Source: Flammeovirgaceae bacterium
GTDB lineage: Bacteria > Bacteroidota > Bacteroidia > Cytophagales > Cyclobacteriaceae
Direction: 5' to 3'
Assembly (NCBI GenBank): GCA_024638265.1
Contig: JAHEKQ010000010.1
Location: forward strand, 1 to 64,000
Length of the DNA stretch: 64,000 bases
Shown here: positions 6,980-25,602 of the stretch, in pieces
Layout: the number at the start of each line of letters is the position of its first letter
Numbering within the stretch: the stretch's first letter is position 1
Made by a program: the position numbers and the translations under genes
The notes under the pieces: model-generated
Seen by the model: the letters and a program-made list of their open reading frames with translations, nothing else
What the model was told of the DNA's origin: nothing
Databases searched by the model: none

Positions 6980-7863
6980 TTATTGGTTGCGTTTAACGAT
7001 TCTAATTCCTCTTTGTAGTCCCTCACGGCCCTGAATATTCCCGATGCCAGCAATGCCTGTCCTCGCTCACTCGCCAGGAACGTCTCCTCTTCCGGGTTGG
7101 TAATATAACCTGTTTCTACGAGAACACTGGGCATGGTGGTTTCCCAAAGTACCCAAAAACCCGCCTGCTTTACTCCGCGGTTCCTTCTTTTAACCCTGTT
7201 GCCGAACTGGTCTTGTATTTTCTGGGCGAGTTTCATACTGCTCTCCAGGAAGGCACTCTGGTATAAGTCAAAAATAATGTAGGATTCGTCGGACTCCGGG
7301 TCAAAGCCCTCGTAGGTCTCCCTGAAATTTTCCTCCTGCATGATTACAGAGTTCTCCCGCATTGCTACCGCGAGGTTATCGTCACTCTTGTGGAGTCCCA
7401 TTACATAGGTTTCGGTGCCATACACCCGCGAATTATTGGGGGGCATCGCATTGACATGAATCGAAATAAACAGGTCTGCCCCAGCATCATTGGCGATCTT
7501 CGCCCTGCCATCCAGTGTAACGAACACATCGGATTTACGCGTATAGATCACTTTAACATCGGGGAGATATTTCTCAATATAGTCGCCAAGCCTCAGGGCG
7601 ATATTGAGAGCAATGGTCTTTTCCCAGGCTACTTTGCCCCGGGTTCCAGAATCTTTTCCCCCGTGCCCGGCGTCGATTACTATGGTTTTTACGGAATAAG
7701 GTGAGTAATTGTGCTCTTCCAGTGGAGAACTGGAAGAATTTAGCAAGATTATTGCTAATGAGAGGACAAGTACTCCAAATCTTGGAATCAAAGTTCCTGA
7801 GTTAATTTTTAACGGGTTAACTTTACGCAATTTTGTGAAAAATTCAGGAAAAGAGAAAGACAC
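6976..7863 (-). CDS. N-acetylmuramoyl-L-alanine amidase (Amidase_3)
   Basis: A zinc amidase that cleaves the bond between MurNAc and L-Ala in peptidoglycan, acting in the periplasm during cell separation. The zinc-ligand motif VIDAGHGGKDSG, the glutamate in WEKTIALNIALRLGD, FISIHVNAMPP with its histidine, and the catalytic-glutamate motif VLVETGYITNPEEE are all present. The short hydrophobic stretch FGVLVLSLAIILL acts as a signal or anchor. The start is uncertain: the frame runs up to 7977, an ATG lies at 7893, GTG at 7863 and TTG at 7830 and 7791. ATG 7893 would overlap the divergent lptD start by 20 bases, so I chose GTG 7863, which does not overlap. Co-transcribed with the downstream MCE gene. 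Confidence 0.88.
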   Translation of the reverse strand: MSFSFPEFFTKLRKVNPLKINSGTLIPRFGVLVLSLAIILLNSSSSPLEEHNYSPYSVKTIVIDAGHGGKDSGTRGKVAWEKTIALNIALRLGDYIEKYLPDVKVIYTRKSDVFVTLDGRAKIANDAGADLFISIHVNAMPPNNSRVYGTETYVMGLHKSDDNLAVAMRENSVIMQEENFRETYEGFDPESDESYIIFDLYQSAFLESSMKLAQKIQDQFGNRVKRRNRGVKQAGFWVLWETTMPSVLVETGYITNPEEETFLASERGQALLASGIFRAVRDYKEELESLNATNK

Positions 7864-7873
7864 GTAAGTTATT

Positions 7874-10576
7874 TTGAGGCTGGGACGGATCATAGTTAAA
7901 TATTTTTTCACGCTTTTTATTCTCGTCATTTCCGTGACCGGGACATTTGGGCAAGACCCCGTAAGGAGGATTAACACCCGACAGGATCTCCCGAACCGAT
8001 CGGATACCGTAAAAATCGCGCAACCGTTAACAGATAGCCTGTTAATCGATTCGGTCAGTCAAAAAAAACCGGTCGGTGACATCAAGACTTCTATCAACTA
8101 TTCTGCCAAAGATTCCATTATTACCTCGGTGGACTCCCGGATCGTTCAGCTCTATGGCAATGCTAAGATAATCTACGGGGAGATCGAACTCGAGGCCGAT
8201 TTTATCACGATCGACTACAATACCCAGGAACTTCACGCCGTGGGAAACGTGGATTCTACCGGTCGACGGATCGGGTTCCCGATATTCAAGAACGGGGAAG
8301 AGGTCTATGAGACCCGGGACATTACCTATAATTTCAAGACCGGTCGTGCGAGGATTAAAGAGGTGGTTACTGAGCAGGGAGACGGGTTCATTCACGGGAA
8401 TACCGTATTCAAGAATGAGCGCGATGAGATCCTGAGTTTCCGCAACAGTTACACCACCTGCAACCTAGCTGAGCCGCATTTCAGAATCCGGTCTCGCAGG
8501 ACCAAGGCCATCCCGGATGACAAGCTGGTTTCCGGCCCCTTTAACCTGGAGATCTCGGGAGTCCCCACACCGCTGGGCTTTCCGTTCGGAATATTTCCCG
8601 CCCCGCGTAAAAGTGCTTCGGGTATCATTATGCCAACCTATGGGGAGGAAGCGCGTCGGGGGTTTTTCCTGAGAAATGGGGGCTATTTCTTCGATATCAG
8701 TGACTACCTGAAACTGCGTCTTACCGGTGAGATTTATTCCAAGGGAAGCTATGGACTATCCATGGCGACGAATTACCGAAAGAGGTATGGTTATAACGGT
8801 AATCTGAATCTCAGTATGACCAAGAATAAAAATACTGATCGCCTGGAGGCACCGACGTCGGTCACCGACTTCCGGATATCGTGGAGTCACTCACCGGAGA
8901 GCAAGGGGACCGGTAAGTTCTCGGCAACGGTTAATGCCGCGACCGCAACCTTTACTCAAAATAATTTCCTGGGATTCAACTATGACCTGAACAGCTCCCA
9001 GTTTGATAACACCACCCGGAAACTCAATTCATCCATCAACTACTCAAAGACTTTTAAGGGGACTCCATTTTCAATGGGCCTGAGCGCAAGACACAACCAG
9101 GACATCACAACCAAGCAATTAGACCTTCAACTTCCTGAGTTCAATGTGAATATGCGCAGCATTTACCCATTCAAAAATACTGCTAAGACTGATCTGCTTT
9201 CCAAGTTTAATTTCCGCTACAGTGTAAAAGGCACCAACAGGATCACCAATAACCTCGGACGTATTGGTGAAGCCACCACGGACAGTATCGCCGCATTTAA
9301 CCTGACCACCCTCCCTACCCTGCTGGAGAATTCCAGGAAGGGAATGCGCCATACTTTGCCGGTCAGTACATCCTTCAAACTGCTCAAATATTTTAATGCC
9401 AATCCCTCTTTCAGTTATGAAGAGCTCTGGTATTTTGAACGACTCAATTGGGGTCTTTCGGAAGACGGGAATTCTGCAGTGGTATTGGATACTATTCCGG
9501 GCTTTAACCGGGTCTCCTCTTTCAGCTCAAGTATCAGTGTTAATACCCGGATCTATGGAACTTATTTATTCGAGAAGGGCAATGTACAAGCCATCAGGCA
9601 CGTGATAAATCCCGCAATATCCTACTCATACACCCCGGATTTTGGCGATCCGAAGTACGATTACTACCAGAAGATTACCCTTAATTCAGGACAGGAACAG
9701 TACAAATCAAGGTATGACCGCTTTGTTTACGGGTCTGCGAGGCTTGGGGAATCACAATCCGTAGGACTCAGTATCGGGAATACCCTCGAAATGAAGGTAT
9801 TGGACACTTCTGATTCGACCTCCGAGGAAAAGAAGTACAAAAAGGTGCCACTACTTCGCAGTTTAAGCTTTTCGAGTTCCTATAACTTTGTCGCAGACAG
9901 TTTTAACCTCGGAAATATATCCATACGGGGAAACACTGCCCTGTTCGACAATAAACTGAATATGACTTTTGGTGCCACAGTTGATCCATACACGTATGTA
10001 CTCGACAGTGTGGTAGTCCAGCCCTCCGGGACAAAAAGAGTTTACGATCGAAAATTAAGTGATTATGCCTGGACCACCGGTAATGGACTTGGACAGATAT
10101 CCAGGGCCAATTTGAGCCTTTCCACCAGTTTTAATCCCAGGCAACGCGAAAAAGACCAGCAAACGGCGGAGAAAATTGTAAACAGCAATCTTTCAGAAGC
10201 CGACAAAAGCTTCCTGCTCAACAACCCCGATTCCTATGTCGATTTTGATATTCCCTGGAATCTTCGGTTGAATTATAATTTGACCTATGGCAAAACTGGT
10301 TTTGACGATCCGAGGATCACACAAACTGTCTCATTCAGCGGTGATGTTTCCCTATCCCAAAAGTGGAAAGTAGGCCTCAGGAGCGGATATGATATCCAGG
10401 GTAAAGAATTCCTCAATACCAATATCACGATAAGTCGTGACCTCCATTGCTGGGAGATGAACCTAAACTGGACCCCATTTGGCCGGTTTACCAACTATAA
10501 TTTTGTGATCCGGGTGAAATCATCACTCCTGCAGGACCTGAAAATCAACAGGAAGAGGAGTTTTTTCGATCGATAA
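7874..10576 (+). CDS. lptD: LPS-assembly protein LptD homologue
   Basis: A 900-residue outer-membrane protein that inserts lipopolysaccharide into the outer leaflet. A signal peptide (about residues 1-26, ending TFGQ) is followed by an OstA/LptA-like jellyroll (about 80-190, with VQLYGNAKIIYGEIELEADF) and a long beta-barrel with alternating strands up to the C-terminus. The conserved LptD stretch GFPFGIFPAPRKSASGIIMP is at about 236-255. The start is a TTG at 7874; no ATG or GTG lies before the signal peptide core. Only two cysteines occur, C196 and C859, one at the jellyroll/barrel border and one in a late strand. It ends two bases before the convergent lysS stop. Confidence 0.93.
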   Translation: MRLGRIIVKYFFTLFILVISVTGTFGQDPVRRINTRQDLPNRSDTVKIAQPLTDSLLIDSVSQKKPVGDIKTSINYSAKDSIITSVDSRIVQLYGNAKIIYGEIELEADFITIDYNTQELHAVGNVDSTGRRIGFPIFKNGEEVYETRDITYNFKTGRARIKEVVTEQGDGFIHGNTVFKNERDEILSFRNSYTTCNLAEPHFRIRSRRTKAIPDDKLVSGPFNLEISGVPTPLGFPFGIFPAPRKSASGIIMPTYGEEARRGFFLRNGGYFFDISDYLKLRLTGEIYSKGSYGLSMATNYRKRYGYNGNLNLSMTKNKNTDRLEAPTSVTDFRISWSHSPESKGTGKFSATVNAATATFTQNNFLGFNYDLNSSQFDNTTRKLNSSINYSKTFKGTPFSMGLSARHNQDITTKQLDLQLPEFNVNMRSIYPFKNTAKTDLLSKFNFRYSVKGTNRITNNLGRIGEATTDSIAAFNLTTLPTLLENSRKGMRHTLPVSTSFKLLKYFNANPSFSYEELWYFERLNWGLSEDGNSAVVLDTIPGFNRVSSFSSSISVNTRIYGTYLFEKGNVQAIRHVINPAISYSYTPDFGDPKYDYYQKITLNSGQEQYKSRYDRFVYGSARLGESQSVGLSIGNTLEMKVLDTSDSTSEEKKYKKVPLLRSLSFSSSYNFVADSFNLGNISIRGNTALFDNKLNMTFGATVDPYTYVLDSVVVQPSGTKRVYDRKLSDYAWTTGNGLGQISRANLSLSTSFNPRQREKDQQTAEKIVNSNLSEADKSFLLNNPDSYVDFDIPWNLRLNYNLTYGKTGFDDPRITQTVSFSGDVSLSQKWKVGLRSGYDIQGKEFLNTNITISRDLHCWEMNLNWTPFGRFTNYNFVIRVKSSLLQDLKINRKRSFFDR

Positions 10577-20555: not shown

Positions 20556-21734
20556 TCAGCTTTCTTTCCTTCGGTTGAGTTCCTTCCTGATCATTTGAAG
20601 TTCCCTGCTACTCTGCCCTTCCACGCTGGTATTTTCCGCAGCCCGCCGGAATAAATAGGGCATCACTGCTCGTACAGGGCCATAGGGCACGTATTTTGTC
20701 ACATTGAAGCCTTCCTTTGCAAGGTTAAACGAAATATTATCGCTCATTCCATATAGCTGGGCAAACCAGAAGTGGTCATTAGAGGGCTCAAAATTCATTT
20801 CACGCATCAGATCGGTGAGAAGAAGGTTGCTCTGTTCATTATGAGATCCGCACATGACTGAGATATCCTGATAATTCTCCGCACAATACATGATACCGGC
20901 GTCAAAACACTCGTCTGTAGATTTTTTGTTTGGATGGATCGGGCTGGGATAACCCATTTCCTCAGCACGGTCCCTTTCCTTCTCCATATAAGCACCCCGG
21001 ACAAGCTTTGCTCCCATTTTGATTCCGATTTCCCTTAAATCCGCATGATGCGCCTTCAAGCGATCCAGCGAATCTACCGTGTACATCTGATAGGTATTGT
21101 AAACAATGCTTTTCTGCCTGTTGTACTTTTTCATCATCTCCAGGCATATGTTATCTATGGGTCCCTGGATCCAGGTTTCTTCTGCGTCAATCATTATCGG
21201 CAAACCTACATCATAAGCTGCCTGGCACACCTCCTCCACCCTGGATTTTATCCTTTCAAAGGCAAGGGATTCGTCATTTGTAAGCTCCTTTCCGGAACCG
21301 ACCTTTTCCAGAAGGGCTGTAGAGGCCATACCTGTCATCTTGAACACACTGAAAGGGATTGCCTCTGAATTAGCAGCCACATTGATTACATGGAGAATTT
21401 CTTCCTTAGCGGCTTCAAAGCCCTCTTCGGTTTCACCCCCTTCCACTGAGTAATCGAGGATTGTCCCTATGCCAAACTTATTGAGTTCTTCGATCGTTCC
21501 ATGGCAATCTTCGATACTGATCCCTCCACAAAAATGGTTAAAGGTAGTTTTTCTGATAATCCCGGTAATAGGTAGGCGCAAAGCCAGGCCCAATTTTGCG
21601 AGGCTGGTTCCCAACTTTGAAAGGGTGGGATTACCAATCAGTGTAAAAATTCTGTTGGCCCTCTTGAGATCTCGATCAGATTTAGAGGAAAACGCTATTT
21701 CGAGATTATTAAAATCCGGTTTATTGTTGTTCAT
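20556..21734 (-). CDS. Proline dehydrogenase
   Basis: A 392-residue FAD enzyme that oxidises proline to pyrroline-5-carboxylate, the first step of proline catabolism. The TIM-barrel motifs are present: FSVFKMTG, MIDAEETWIQGPID, YNTYQMYTVDSLDRL, KLVRGAYMEKERDRAEEMG, MCGSHNEQS, FAQLYGMSDNI and the C-terminal KYVPYGPVRAVMPYLFRRA. This is the monofunctional Bacteroidota form, without the aldehyde dehydrogenase half of PutA. ATG 21743 and 21734 are both possible; the latter (MNNNKPDFNNLEIAFSSKSD) matches the usual N-terminus better. A TATATTTG box at 21754-21761 precedes both. Confidence 0.95.
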   Translation of the reverse strand: MNNNKPDFNNLEIAFSSKSDRDLKRANRIFTLIGNPTLSKLGTSLAKLGLALRLPITGIIRKTTFNHFCGGISIEDCHGTIEELNKFGIGTILDYSVEGGETEEGFEAAKEEILHVINVAANSEAIPFSVFKMTGMASTALLEKVGSGKELTNDESLAFERIKSRVEEVCQAAYDVGLPIMIDAEETWIQGPIDNICLEMMKKYNRQKSIVYNTYQMYTVDSLDRLKAHHADLREIGIKMGAKLVRGAYMEKERDRAEEMGYPSPIHPNKKSTDECFDAGIMYCAENYQDISVMCGSHNEQSNLLLTDLMREMNFEPSNDHFWFAQLYGMSDNISFNLAKEGFNVTKYVPYGPVRAVMPYLFRRAAENTSVEGQSSRELQMIRKELNRRKES

Positions 21735-21753
21735 ACCCCTCATTCATGTGCTG

Positions 21754-21847: not shown

Positions 21848-21855
21848 TATATTTG
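21848..21855 (+). promoter_or_regulatory. -7 box TATATTTG of the aromatic operon leader
   Basis: Perfect TAnnTTTG on the plus strand, six bases before the leader peptide ATG (21862), with TTT at 19-base spacing upstream. The transcript should begin at about 21859-21862, so the leader peptide would be translated from a leaderless or nearly leaderless mRNA. Confidence 0.6.
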
Positions 21856-21861
21856 TGATTC

Positions 21862-21942
21862 ATGAATAACGAAGACAGAAGATTTTCTTACTTTTTTTAC
21901 TTCTACTACGAAAGTAATATTTCGGAACAGAGCTTCGTGTAA
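21862..21942 (+). CDS. Phe/Tyr-rich leader peptide of the aromatic amino acid operon
   Basis: A 26-codon frame from ATG to TAA encodes MNNEDRRFSYFFYFYY followed by ESNISEQSFV. Eight of residues 8-16 are Phe or Tyr, and seven are consecutive (codons 10-16, 21889-21909). It lies between a TATATTTG promoter box and a strong intrinsic terminator, 62 bases before the gene for the first enzyme of aromatic amino acid synthesis. This is the layout of a ribosome-mediated attenuator: stalling on Phe/Tyr codons when the charged tRNAs run low should prevent the terminator. The peptide itself probably has no other function. Too short for ordinary gene callers. Translation is inferred, not shown. Confidence 0.85.
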   Translation: MNNEDRRFSYFFYFYYESNISEQSFV

Positions 21943-21969
21943 ACGAAAAAAACTTAAAGAGAAAGCCTG
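21928..21969 (+). promoter_or_regulatory. Candidate antiterminator pairing in the aromatic leader
   Basis: CAG-A-GCTT (21928-21935, leader codons 23-25) can pair with AAGCCTG (21963-21969), which is the 5' arm of the terminator, with a single bulged A. A ribosome stalled at codons 10-16 would leave 21928-21935 free to pair, whereas one that reaches the stop codon at 21940-21942 would cover it and let the terminator fold. The pairing is short (seven pairs) and is my inference. Confidence 0.45.
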
Positions 21970-21995
21970 ATTCCGATTTTGAATCAGGCTTTTTT
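21962..21995 (+). terminator. Intrinsic terminator (attenuator) before the DAHP synthase gene
   Basis: A perfect twelve-pair stem AAAGCCTGATTC/GAATCAGGCTTT (21962-21973 and 21981-21992) with a seven-base loop is followed by a T run. It stands inside the leader of the aromatic operon, ten bases before the ATG at 22005, with no other upstream plus-strand gene to terminate except the leader peptide. Confidence 0.9.
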
Positions 21996-22004
21996 GTTTG
22001 AACG

Positions 22005-23093
22005 ATGGCAGAAATGGAAATAACGAGCATTGAAAATTGGGGATTCAATTTCCAGCGACCCTTAATGATTGCAGGACCTTGCAGTGCGGAAAGTCCTGAA
22101 CAGATCGAAGCGATCGCCAAAGGGCTCAGGGGCTCCCAAATTGATCTTTTCAGGGCAGGTATCTGGAAACCGCGTACCAGGCCGGGAAACTTTGAAGGTA
22201 TAGGGGGCGATGCACTGGAATGGCTTAAGATCGCCAAGGAAATACTAGGGGTTCCGACAACAGTGGAAGTTGCCAATGCAAAGCACGTGGAAAATGCCTT
22301 GAAAGCTGAAATTGATGTTCTCTGGATAGGTGCCAGGACTACTGTTAACCCTTTTTCGGTACAGGAAGTATGCGATGCTTTGAAGGGGGTAGATATACCT
22401 GTTATGGTAAAAAATCCGATTAACCCGGACTTACAATTATGGCTCGGCGCTATCGAACGCCTCTACCAGTCAGGAATAAGTAGAATAGCAGCCGTCCACA
22501 GGGGCTTTTCCAACCGCTATGTCACAGAATTCAGAAATGCCCCCGAGTGGAGCCTTCCGTTGAAACTTAAAGAAATGATCCCCGGATTGGCCATCATTTG
22601 TGATCCCAGCCATATATGCGGATCAAGGGATACCATAGAAGAGGTCTCCCAGAAGGCTTTGAACTTTGGTCTTGATGGACTGATGCTAGAGGTTCATCAT
22701 GACCCCGACAATGCATGGAGTGACTCCAAACAACAGATTACACCATTAACCTATAATGATATGATAAAGCGTTTGATTATCAGGGATAGTATTGATTCTT
22801 CTCCGGAATTAAAATCCGACCTCGTGAAACTGAGGGAAAAGGTGGATCAGATGGATAAGGCCATGATTGATGTGCTTGCTGAACGGTTTGGGTATATCAA
22901 GGCCATTGGTGAATACAAGAGAAAAAACAACCTGGCGGTATTCCAGGGAGATCGATGGCATGATGTCACCTCTTCGCGTGTAAACATGGGTAAGGAGAAA
23001 GACCTCAGTGAGGAATTTATGTATAAGATCATGGAAGCTATCCATGATGAATCGATCAAGCAGCAGGAATCCATGCTGGAAAAAGAAAGTTAA
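22005..23093 (+). CDS. Bifunctional 3-deoxy-7-phosphoheptulonate synthase/chorismate mutase
   Basis: A 362-residue fusion joining the first step of the shikimate pathway (PEP plus erythrose 4-phosphate to DAHP) to the chorismate-to-prephenate step. Residues about 1-265 are a TIM-barrel DAHP synthase of the KDO8P-synthase-like type, with AGPCSAES, FRAGIWKPRTRPGNFEG, LWIGARTTVNPF, VMVKNPINPDL, AAVHRGFSN and CDPSHICGSR. Residues about 266-362 are an AroQ-type helical chorismate mutase (LREKVDQMDKAMIDVLAERF, IGEYKRKNNLAVFQ). In this class the mutase domain can also serve as the allosteric site for prephenate. The gene is downstream of the Phe/Tyr attenuator and overlaps aroB by one base (TAATG). 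Confidence 0.96.
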   Translation: MAEMEITSIENWGFNFQRPLMIAGPCSAESPEQIEAIAKGLRGSQIDLFRAGIWKPRTRPGNFEGIGGDALEWLKIAKEILGVPTTVEVANAKHVENALKAEIDVLWIGARTTVNPFSVQEVCDALKGVDIPVMVKNPINPDLQLWLGAIERLYQSGISRIAAVHRGFSNRYVTEFRNAPEWSLPLKLKEMIPGLAIICDPSHICGSRDTIEEVSQKALNFGLDGLMLEVHHDPDNAWSDSKQQITPLTYNDMIKRLIIRDSIDSSPELKSDLVKLREKVDQMDKAMIDVLAERFGYIKAIGEYKRKNNLAVFQGDRWHDVTSSRVNMGKEKDLSEEFMYKIMEAIHDESIKQQESMLEKES

Positions 23094-24118
23094 TGGACTC
23101 GGTCGAGTTTGGTGATTCATCGGTACTCCTTAAAAATACATTGGATGACAGGGCCTATGGAAAAATTGCCATCCTTGTAGATGATAATACCTCAAAACAC
23201 TGCCTGCCGCTTATTCAGCACACCCTTGGTGACTTTACACATATAGAAGTATCTCACGGGGAGGTCAATAAAAATCTTGATAGCTGTCAGCAAATCTGGG
23301 AGCGGTTGACCCGTGGAGAATTTAGCAGAAATGATTTAATGATCAATCTCGGTGGAGGGGTGATTAGTGATATGGGGGGCTTCTGCGCAAGTACCTTTAA
23401 GCGTGGAATGGATTTTATCAATATCCCCACGACCCTGCTCGCGCAGGTGGATGCCAGTATAGGGGGCAAACTCGGGGTGGATTTTATGGGCTATAAAAAC
23501 CACATCGGGCTCTTCAACAAACCAGAAAAAGTATTTATCGATACAAAATATCTCAAAACCCTTCCGGAAAGAGAGCTTAAAAGTGGATTTGCAGAAGTTA
23601 TCAAACATTCGCTACTAAACGGTACCGACCATTGGAATGAAATCAGGCAATTTAACTGGAACACATCCTGGGATGACCTGATCAAGAAGAGTATTAAAGT
23701 AAAGAGTGATATAGTTGCCTCAGACTACAAGGAAGCCGGACTCCGAAAGGTCCTAAATTTCGGTCATACTATTGGCCACGGGGTCGAGAGTCATTTTCTC
23801 GGGGGCGAACACACTTTGCTTCACGGGGAAGCGATAGCTGCTGGAATGATTATGGAGTTATGGTTGTCCTCAAAGGTACTTTCATTGGAAACAGAAGTAA
23901 GAGACGAGATTGTGGAATACTTGCTGTCCCTGTATGGCAAGGTAAATTCAGGAGAACTTAATCAGGAAGAAATAATCAAATTGATGAGAATGGATAAGAA
24001 AAACAGGGACAATAAAATCCTTTTTGCACTGCTCAAAGGATTGGGCAATGCACAATATGATGTGGCTATAACGGAGGAGCTGGTATCACAGTCCTTAGAC
24101 TACTATAATAATCTTTAA
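23093..24118 (+). CDS. aroB: 3-dehydroquinate synthase
   Basis: A 341-residue NAD- and metal-dependent enzyme converting DAHP to 3-dehydroquinate, the second shikimate step. The NAD-binding motif GGGVISDMGGFCASTFKRG, IPTTLLAQVDASIGGKLGVD, KNHIGLF, SGFAEVIKH and the metal-ligand region FGHTIGHGVES plus LLHGEAIAAGM are all present. Its ATG overlaps the stop of the DAHP synthase gene by one base, so translation is probably coupled and the gene falls under the same attenuator. Its stop overlaps that of a convergent small gene by three bases. Confidence 0.97.
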   Translation: MDSVEFGDSSVLLKNTLDDRAYGKIAILVDDNTSKHCLPLIQHTLGDFTHIEVSHGEVNKNLDSCQQIWERLTRGEFSRNDLMINLGGGVISDMGGFCASTFKRGMDFINIPTTLLAQVDASIGGKLGVDFMGYKNHIGLFNKPEKVFIDTKYLKTLPERELKSGFAEVIKHSLLNGTDHWNEIRQFNWNTSWDDLIKKSIKVKSDIVASDYKEAGLRKVLNFGHTIGHGVESHFLGGEHTLLHGEAIAAGMIMELWLSSKVLSLETEVRDEIVEYLLSLYGKVNSGELNQEEIIKLMRMDKKNRDNKILFALLKGLGNAQYDVAITEELVSQSLDYYNNL

Positions 24119-24375: not shown

Positions 24376-25602
24376 ATGAGTAAGGGAAAAATTTTATTGG
24401 ATCGAATACCGATTGACAGAGAATCGAAGGTAACATTGCCTGCGTCCAAGAGCATAAACAATCGTGTAGAAGTTATCAGTGCCCTTGCCGGGGGGAGCAC
24501 GAAGATCCTTAATCCTTCCAACGCCAGGGACTCTGTACTCATGCGGGAAATGATCGGGAAAGAGGAAAAAGAGATCGATGTCAGGGATGCAGGGACCACA
24601 TTCAGGTTTCTGACCGCTTATAATGCCATTAAAAATGATAAAAAGATCATCACCGGAACCGAACGTATGAAACAACGCCCGGTGGGCATTCTGGTTGACG
24701 CACTTACCGAATTGGGTGCATCAATCAATTACCTGGGAAAACCCGGATACCCACCACTTGAAATTGGTGCTTTCAAGTATTCGGGACATCACCAAATAAA
24801 AATCAGGGGAGATGTAAGCAGCCAATACATCAGCGCGGTTATGATGATTGGACCTGTGCTGCCTGAGGGTGTGGAAATTCACCTGACAGGGAAAATCGGC
24901 TCAATGCCCTATATCGAAATGACCCTGGAGCTGATGAAGGATTTTGGTGCCGGAATCCATATCCGTGATAATGTAATATCCATCCAACCCGGGGGATACA
25001 ATGCTCCGGAATCTTTTGAAATCGAGCCCGATTGGTCTGCAGCCAGTTACTGGTACAGCTTCACGGGTATCACCGGTATTCCCGTGACCATCCCGGGCTT
25101 GAGAAGGCCCTCGCTCCAGGGTGATAGTATAATTGCCGAAATCATGGAAACAATCGGGGTTAAAACCCAATTCACTACTGGGGGAATCCGCCTCTCCCCT
25201 TCTGATGGAGCAAGTGAATTCAACTATGACTTTATTCATTGTCCTGACCTTGCCCAGACCGTGGCTACCTATTGTGCAGCGAAAGGAATCACCTGTAGAA
25301 TGACGGGGTTGGAAAGCCTGCGTATAAAAGAAACCGACCGAATTTCTGCCATGCAAAGGGAACTATCAAAATTGGCCGTCAAGTTCCTTGAATCTACTAA
25401 TTCCTGGATTATTTCAGGCAATATCCAGTCAGGAGATACTCCAGTCCATATTGAAACCTATGAAGACCACCGCATGGCGATGGCGTTTGCACCCTTATCA
25501 TTCATAAGAAGCCTCGAAATCCTTGACCCAGGCGTGGTCGCCAAGTCATACCCGCATTTCTGGGACGACTTCAACAGGCTTTCTAAGCCTTCAGGTAGCT
25601 AA
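24376..25602 (+). CDS. aroA: 3-phosphoshikimate 1-carboxyvinyltransferase (EPSP synthase)
   Basis: A 408-residue enzyme joining shikimate 3-phosphate and PEP to form EPSP, the sixth shikimate step. Motifs include LPASKSINNR, NPSNARDSVLM, DAGTTFRFLTAY, GTERMKQRPVG, SSQYISAVMMIGP, KETDRISAMQREL and YEDHRMAMAFAPLS. The PEP-site Lys and Arg residues are in place. A little shorter than the 427-residue E. coli enzyme, as is common in Bacteroidota. It sits 257 bases after aroB with the small antisense gene between, so it may have its own promoter; I see no clear -7 box. The 3' end overlaps the convergent M42 peptidase gene by 20 bases. Confidence 0.96.
   Translation: MSKGKILLDRIPIDRESKVTLPASKSINNRVEVISALAGGSTKILNPSNARDSVLMREMIGKEEKEIDVRDAGTTFRFLTAYNAIKNDKKIITGTERMKQRPVGILVDALTELGASINYLGKPGYPPLEIGAFKYSGHHQIKIRGDVSSQYISAVMMIGPVLPEGVEIHLTGKIGSMPYIEMTLELMKDFGAGIHIRDNVISIQPGGYNAPESFEIEPDWSAASYWYSFTGITGIPVTIPGLRRPSLQGDSIIAEIMETIGVKTQFTTGGIRLSPSDGASEFNYDFIHCPDLAQTVATYCAAKGITCRMTGLESLRIKETDRISAMQRELSKLAVKFLESTNSWIISGNIQSGDTPVHIETYEDHRMAMAFAPLSFIRSLEILDPGVVAKSYPHFWDDFNRLSKPSGS

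Follow-up and report, generated by a model that had tools for sequence, protein, structure and literature searches.

In Escherichia coli, the DAHP synthases encoded by aroF, aroG and aroH are each under the control of their own aromatic end product or products, exerted via the TyrR and TrpR repressors. In contrast, the genome considered here carries leader peptides, with mixed Phe and Tyr (F/Y) codons for a DAHP synthase–chorismate mutase fusion (DAHPS-CM) and Trp codons for the DAHP synthase of the trp operon. The F/Y leader resembles the enteric pheA leader (RF01859, pheL) in its peptide rich in the pathway end product, its mutually exclusive antiterminator and terminator, and the apparent control of a Phe-branch gene. 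Unlike the enteric leader, it mixes Phe and Tyr codons, lacks a Shine–Dalgarno (SD) sequence, is predicted to start at or near the 5′ end of the mRNA, and would control the first enzyme of the pathway, here a fusion with chorismate mutase. The trpL attenuator of Sinorhizobium meliloti is a leaderless precedent, its mRNA beginning directly at the leader AUG, but it concerns Trp, belongs to another phylum and has no established sequence relation to the present leader (PMC7298713).

Literature on aromatic attenuators of Bacteroidota was found to contain general remarks only. For Flavobacterium psychrophilum, a member of the same phylum, one sentence of Guerin et al. 2021 suggests leader-peptide attenuation of amino acid operons, the main text giving neither a gene list nor a mechanism (PMC9723704). 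Short ORFs (sORFs) resembling leader peptides have been recorded for Bacteroides thetaiotaomicron (PMC7366714), and a wide attenuation survey, that of Lopatovskaya et al. 2010, is cited in PMC4833913. No description of an F/Y leader, of a Tyr leader of phenylalanine hydroxylase or of the leaderless variant was found in this literature; an earlier prediction may be contained in Table S7 of PMC9723704 or in Lopatovskaya et al. 2010. Although the mechanism is a textbook one, the F/Y leader forms a new family at the sequence level. Its membership in RF01859 (Phe_leader) was rejected, the score being 28.0 bits where the gathering score is 55; the strongest sub-threshold hits in the window, to Thr_leader (32.9 bits) and Phe_leader (28 bits), have the look of generic matches to a terminator plus pyrimidines.

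Leader architecture and alternative folds

The leader lies in a 64-kb stretch of DNA (the window) and precedes the first gene of an aroG/Q-aroB-aroA cluster (Table 1). The first-pass annotation had placed here a perfect box motif, a 26-codon ORF with the aromatic run in codons 8–16, a hairpin with a T run and a DAHP synthase–chorismate mutase gene; each of these is present. The stem has 13 pairs, one more than had been counted, and the antiterminator had been overlooked in that list of parts. The genome, which had been taken for a Flavobacteriia type, belongs instead to Cytophagales and is a relative of Cyclobacteriaceae/Roseivirga.

Table 1. Elements of the F/Y leader and neighbouring genes in the window
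Feature	Position	Strand	Basis
−7 promoter box TATATTTG, Bacteroidota sigma-A type	21848–21855	+	sequence read
Leader peptide ORF, 26 codons, MNNEDRRFSYFFYFYYESNISEQSFV	21862–21942	+	translation; homologous sORF in 73/80 relatives
Control codons 8–16, F-S-Y-F-F-Y-F-Y-Y	21883–21909	+	translation
Leader ORF stop codon	21940–21942	+	
Antiterminator 5′ arm CGGAACAGaGCU (CGGAACAG-a-GCT), within leader ORF	21923–21934	+	folding, covariation
Shared arm AGCCUGaUUCCG (AGCCTG-a-TTCCG): antiterminator 3′ arm and most of terminator 5′ arm	21964–21975	+	
Intrinsic terminator, 13-bp stem (21961–21973/21981–21993), 7-nt loop	21961–21995	+	folding, covariation
DAHP synthase (type I beta)–chorismate mutase type II fusion, regulated gene	22005–23093	+	PF00793, PF01817
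3-Dehydroquinate synthase, aroB	23093–24118	+	domain/ORF annotation
EPSP synthase, aroA	24376–25602	+	domain/ORF annotation
Proline dehydrogenase, divergent, outside the system	20556–21743	−	domain/ORF annotation

The divergent orientation of the proline dehydrogenase gene shows that the leader receives no read-through from a gene upstream. The aroB start codon begins on the final base of the DAHPS-CM stop codon, which makes co-transcription of the two genes very likely, and leader control probably extends to aroB. A gap of 257 nt separates this unit from aroA, which may or may not belong to the same transcript; control perhaps extends to it as well.

The terminator hairpin (−17.3 kcal/mol) ends about 10 nt 5′ of the DAHPS-CM gene, and its stem merges into a T tract (21990–21995). 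This merging is presumably why a simple terminator scanner did not call the hairpin. The entire leader folds better than 200/200 dinucleotide shuffles (z −3.63). Among dinucleotide shuffles of the intergenic region, an ATG-initiated sORF with eight aromatic residues in nine codons was found in 0/2000, and an equally good terminator in 0/300. No second sORF-plus-terminator of the F/Y type occurs on either strand of the window, no such leader accompanies the other genome sites with six Phe/Tyr codons in a row, and the leader model R1 detected no second copy in the genome.

When RNA with an incomplete terminator was folded, a long-range helix of −13.1 kcal/mol formed between 21923–21934 and 21964–21975. 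Because its 3′ arm constitutes most of the terminator 5′ arm, this antiterminator and the terminator are mutually exclusive. Step-wise folding with a ribosome placed in the F/Y run gave the antiterminator (−13 to −15 kcal/mol), while a ribosome placed at the stop codon left only the terminator (−19.6 kcal/mol). With no ribosome and an incomplete terminator, the antiterminator was again the predicted fold, so super-attenuation is not assured. The features that characterise an attenuator, i.e. a run of codons for the pathway end product, a terminator before the structural gene and an exclusive antiterminator, are thus all present.

The spacing of these elements is such that a stalled ribosome would free the antiterminator 5′ arm and one that finishes translation would cover it. 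The last aromatic codon lies 11–12 nt from the arm in 59 of the 74 leaders compared (see below), which is approximately the reach of a ribosome past its A site, and in the window 5 nt separate the end of the arm from the stop codon. In Algoriphagus-type leaders, the stop codon is 14–24 nt past the arm, so a ribosome there would cover the arm incompletely and timing must matter.

Conservation and the start of transcription

An aromatic sORF, an antiterminator and a terminator were found directly upstream of the DAHPS-CM gene in 73/80 relatives; together with the window leader, these constitute the set of 74. The seven relatives without the leader are Spirosoma, Pedobacter, Desertivirga, Paradesertivirga, a Saprospiraceae MAG, a Chitinophagales MAG and one Bacteroidetes MAG. 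The first-pass annotation had read the locus as a Phe/Tyr attenuator and had proposed conservation of the aromatic run and hairpin across relatives as a test: both are kept while the rest drifts, and the reading proved largely right.

Covariation was scored on 20 diverse sequences against 500 shuffles. In the antiterminator, 87.8% of cells were paired and the covariation score was 0.318 versus 0.231 in shuffles; for the terminator, the figures were 98.2% and 0.314 versus 0.202, and neither score was reached in any shuffle (0/500 in both cases). Slid controls fell far below the real alignment in both paired cells and covariation score; only in the count of antiterminator pairs changed on both sides was this not so (five observed versus six at slide −3). 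At the outermost antiterminator pairs, C-G, U-A and G-C alternate; these positions have no partner in the terminator, and their covariation therefore supports the antiterminator independently. In 42 distinct collinear leaders, the first base of the F/Y-run codons is invariant, with only F/Y swaps or T/C third-base changes, and in R-I-G-A, the codons of the arm, nearly all three positions are fixed. Read from the alignment, this pattern is one of selection on the amino acids in the run and then on the RNA in the arm.

At G111:C6 and at G320:C3, two DAHPS-CM paralogues adjoin each other, the leader standing directly upstream of only one gene of each pair. A MAG labelled as Flavobacteriaceae (L017, JAGYKX010000005.1) carries a Roseivirga-like DAHPS-CM with the leader; its label is possibly wrong.

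The TAnnTTTG box is separated from the leader AUG by exactly 4 nt in 63/74 leaders and by 6 nt in the window, and none of the 74 leaders has an SD-like motif. The promoter in the window also lacks a good −33 TTTG at normal spacing; this and its 6-nt gap count against the attenuator reading. In Flavobacterium johnsoniae, transcription starts 4–5 nt downstream of this type of box, and 87% of transcripts have leaders longer than 10 nt (PMC6847099). Leader mRNAs with the 4-nt gap are therefore predicted to start at the AUG, and that of the window within two bases of it: transcription would start at about 21860–21861, leaving at most one or two untranslated bases. Judging by the box-to-AUG gap, the leader mRNA is probably leaderless. 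The leaders would offer a case of attenuation with no SD sequence, and their conserved near-leaderless start in Cytophagales would be unusual for the phylum, leaderless transcripts making up only 5.5% of the mapped mRNAs reported for F. psychrophilum (PMC9723704). In the other families surveyed, the distance from box to start codon, where a box was found, is mostly 15–35 nt, which makes the predicted near-leaderless start a lineage feature.

Proposed mechanism and rival explanations

The leader is very probably a transcription attenuator of the ribosome-mediated class, by which charged tRNA-Phe and tRNA-Tyr are sensed. Given its observed parts, covariation, spacing and phylogenetic reach, we infer the start of transcription, the stalling and the termination as follows. 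RNA polymerase would start at the leader AUG or at most two bases from it, with a ribosome close behind. When Phe-tRNA or Tyr-tRNA is scarce, the ribosome would stall in the F/Y run with its front edge just before 21923. The segment 21923–21934 could then pair with 21964–21975 as soon as the latter is transcribed; the terminator would be blocked, and DAHPS-CM and aroB would be transcribed. When both tRNAs are ample, the ribosome would reach the stop codon and mask 21923–21934, the terminator would form and transcription would stop near 21995. A shortage of either amino acid would suffice to open the switch, and both would be needed to close it.

The simplest alternative is a plain intrinsic terminator or insulator, with an aromatic ORF standing before it by chance and no regulation. 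By folding, the hairpin would indeed terminate transcription by itself, but the divergent proline dehydrogenase gene leaves nothing upstream to insulate from; moreover, the run, the antiterminator and the spacing are all conserved, and the run arose in 0/2000 shuffles. We regard this explanation as extremely improbable. We give equally little credence to the proposal that a ligand-binding riboswitch, a T-box or a protein acts on the same hairpins with no translating ribosome. Two exclusive hairpins would fit any attenuator, but an Rfam search of the window, which covered T-box and known riboswitches, gave no match at gathering level, aptamer-like conserved structure is absent outside the arms, and the coding signature of the run would be left unexplained.

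A somewhat less remote, still very improbable, alternative is a stable small membrane peptide with a function of its own, encoded by an mRNA that merely ends at the terminator. The hydrophobic, aromatic nature of the peptide and its conservation in Algoriphagus and relatives would favour such a function; against this, its length and both its ends vary widely, and the amino acid of the run changes with the downstream pathway (Trp, Tyr or Phe/Tyr; see below). The constancy of the region past the run extends to nearly all three codon positions, a consequence of its being an RNA arm, and this too is at odds with a functional peptide. The attenuator remains the preferred reading.

Related leaders across Bacteroidota

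Two further kinds of leader accompany genes of aromatic metabolism. In the genome of the window, a Trp leader peptide, MRIEYRTFWWWQLLKPGN (WWW), with a terminator was found at G000:C153:1138–1194 (locus L207), upstream of trpE at 1268; this trp operon (trpE to trpA) carries a second, unfused DAHP synthase at 7713–8729. The pheA gene lies on a separate contig, where no leader was detected, and phenylalanine hydroxylase is absent from this genome. The first-pass annotation had assigned to the F/Y leader control of the whole flow into aromatic synthesis. This goes too far: with a DAHP synthase and a leader belonging to trp itself, and with pheA elsewhere and no leader detected there, the F/Y leader governs one of two pathway entries.

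Phenylalanine hydroxylase converts Phe into Tyr. Tyr-only leaders followed by a terminator were found upstream of its gene in eight loci (L089, L091, L102, L222, L226, L228, L230 and L233), with runs such as NIYYYYYP, TYYYYP and IYYYYYP; these are putative Tyr-specific attenuators. With F/Y before the shared pathway, WWW before trp and Tyr alone before phenylalanine hydroxylase, the choice of codons tracks what the controlled gene produces. This match is correlative, yet hard to explain otherwise.

Of the 395 Bacteroidota genomes sampled, 107 contain DAHPS-CM relatives (E ≤ 1e-60) and 58 contain matches to the leader covariance model (E ≤ 0.01); many of these matches share the strand of DAHPS-CM and lie 1–5 kb upstream of it. 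When 80 regions upstream of DAHPS-CM were scanned with the antisense strand as a control, an F/Y-rich sORF followed by a terminator was found in 51/80, versus 1/80 in antisense. Significant antiterminator pairing (p ≤ 0.05) was detected in 50 of the 53 leaders in the surveyed regions. Phe and Tyr are both represented in all of them (53/53), accompanied by Trp in 20/53; the mixing of Phe and Tyr codons that the first-pass annotation had remarked on is universal among the leaders found. The first gene of the operon in these loci is usually that of prephenate dehydratase (pheA). The leader peptides of Bacteroides finegoldii (MKSFTYAYYFFFYFYFSNKVEREFVCIK) and Parabacteroides distasonis (MNRFSFTYYFYYFYFSRVRAGVCM), for example, precede a pheA-aminotransferase-DAHPS/CM-prephenate dehydrogenase operon. 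No such leader was found in the surveyed upstream regions of families f3, f6, f9 and f10 (family labels denote kinship groups only), and the leader-like match in L172 (family f48) is doubtful. Distant R1 matches (e.g. L104, L106 and L111) were discarded as bare terminators with no aromatic ORF.

Taking these leaders together, we lean slightly towards a view in which Bacteroidota use a set of leader-peptide attenuators for aromatics, not repressors of the TyrR/TrpR type: F/Y leaders would act on DAHPS-CM or the pheA operon, a Trp leader would govern the trp operon and the separate DAHP synthase within it, and phenylalanine hydroxylase would be under Tyr-only leaders, the Cytophagales F/Y leader being leaderless, with the ribosome loading at the nascent 5′ end with no SD sequence. 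Such a circuit would be concrete and testable, and it would concern a phylum, gut Bacteroides and Parabacteroides included, about whose control of aromatic amino acid synthesis little is known. Standing as they do before different genes, the F/Y, Trp and Tyr-only leaders offer natural specificity controls.

According to a paper of 2025, DAH7PS-CM is specific to periodontal pathogens (PMC12202928); in contrast, DAHPS-CM relatives were also found in many free-living lineages, e.g. Algoriphagus and Roseivirga. One DAHPS-CM copy sits on a Pseudoalteromonas replicon. Two loci, L125 and L130, have two tandem leader-peptide/terminator units about 3.1–3.4 kb upstream of DAHPS-CM, which are possible double attenuators.
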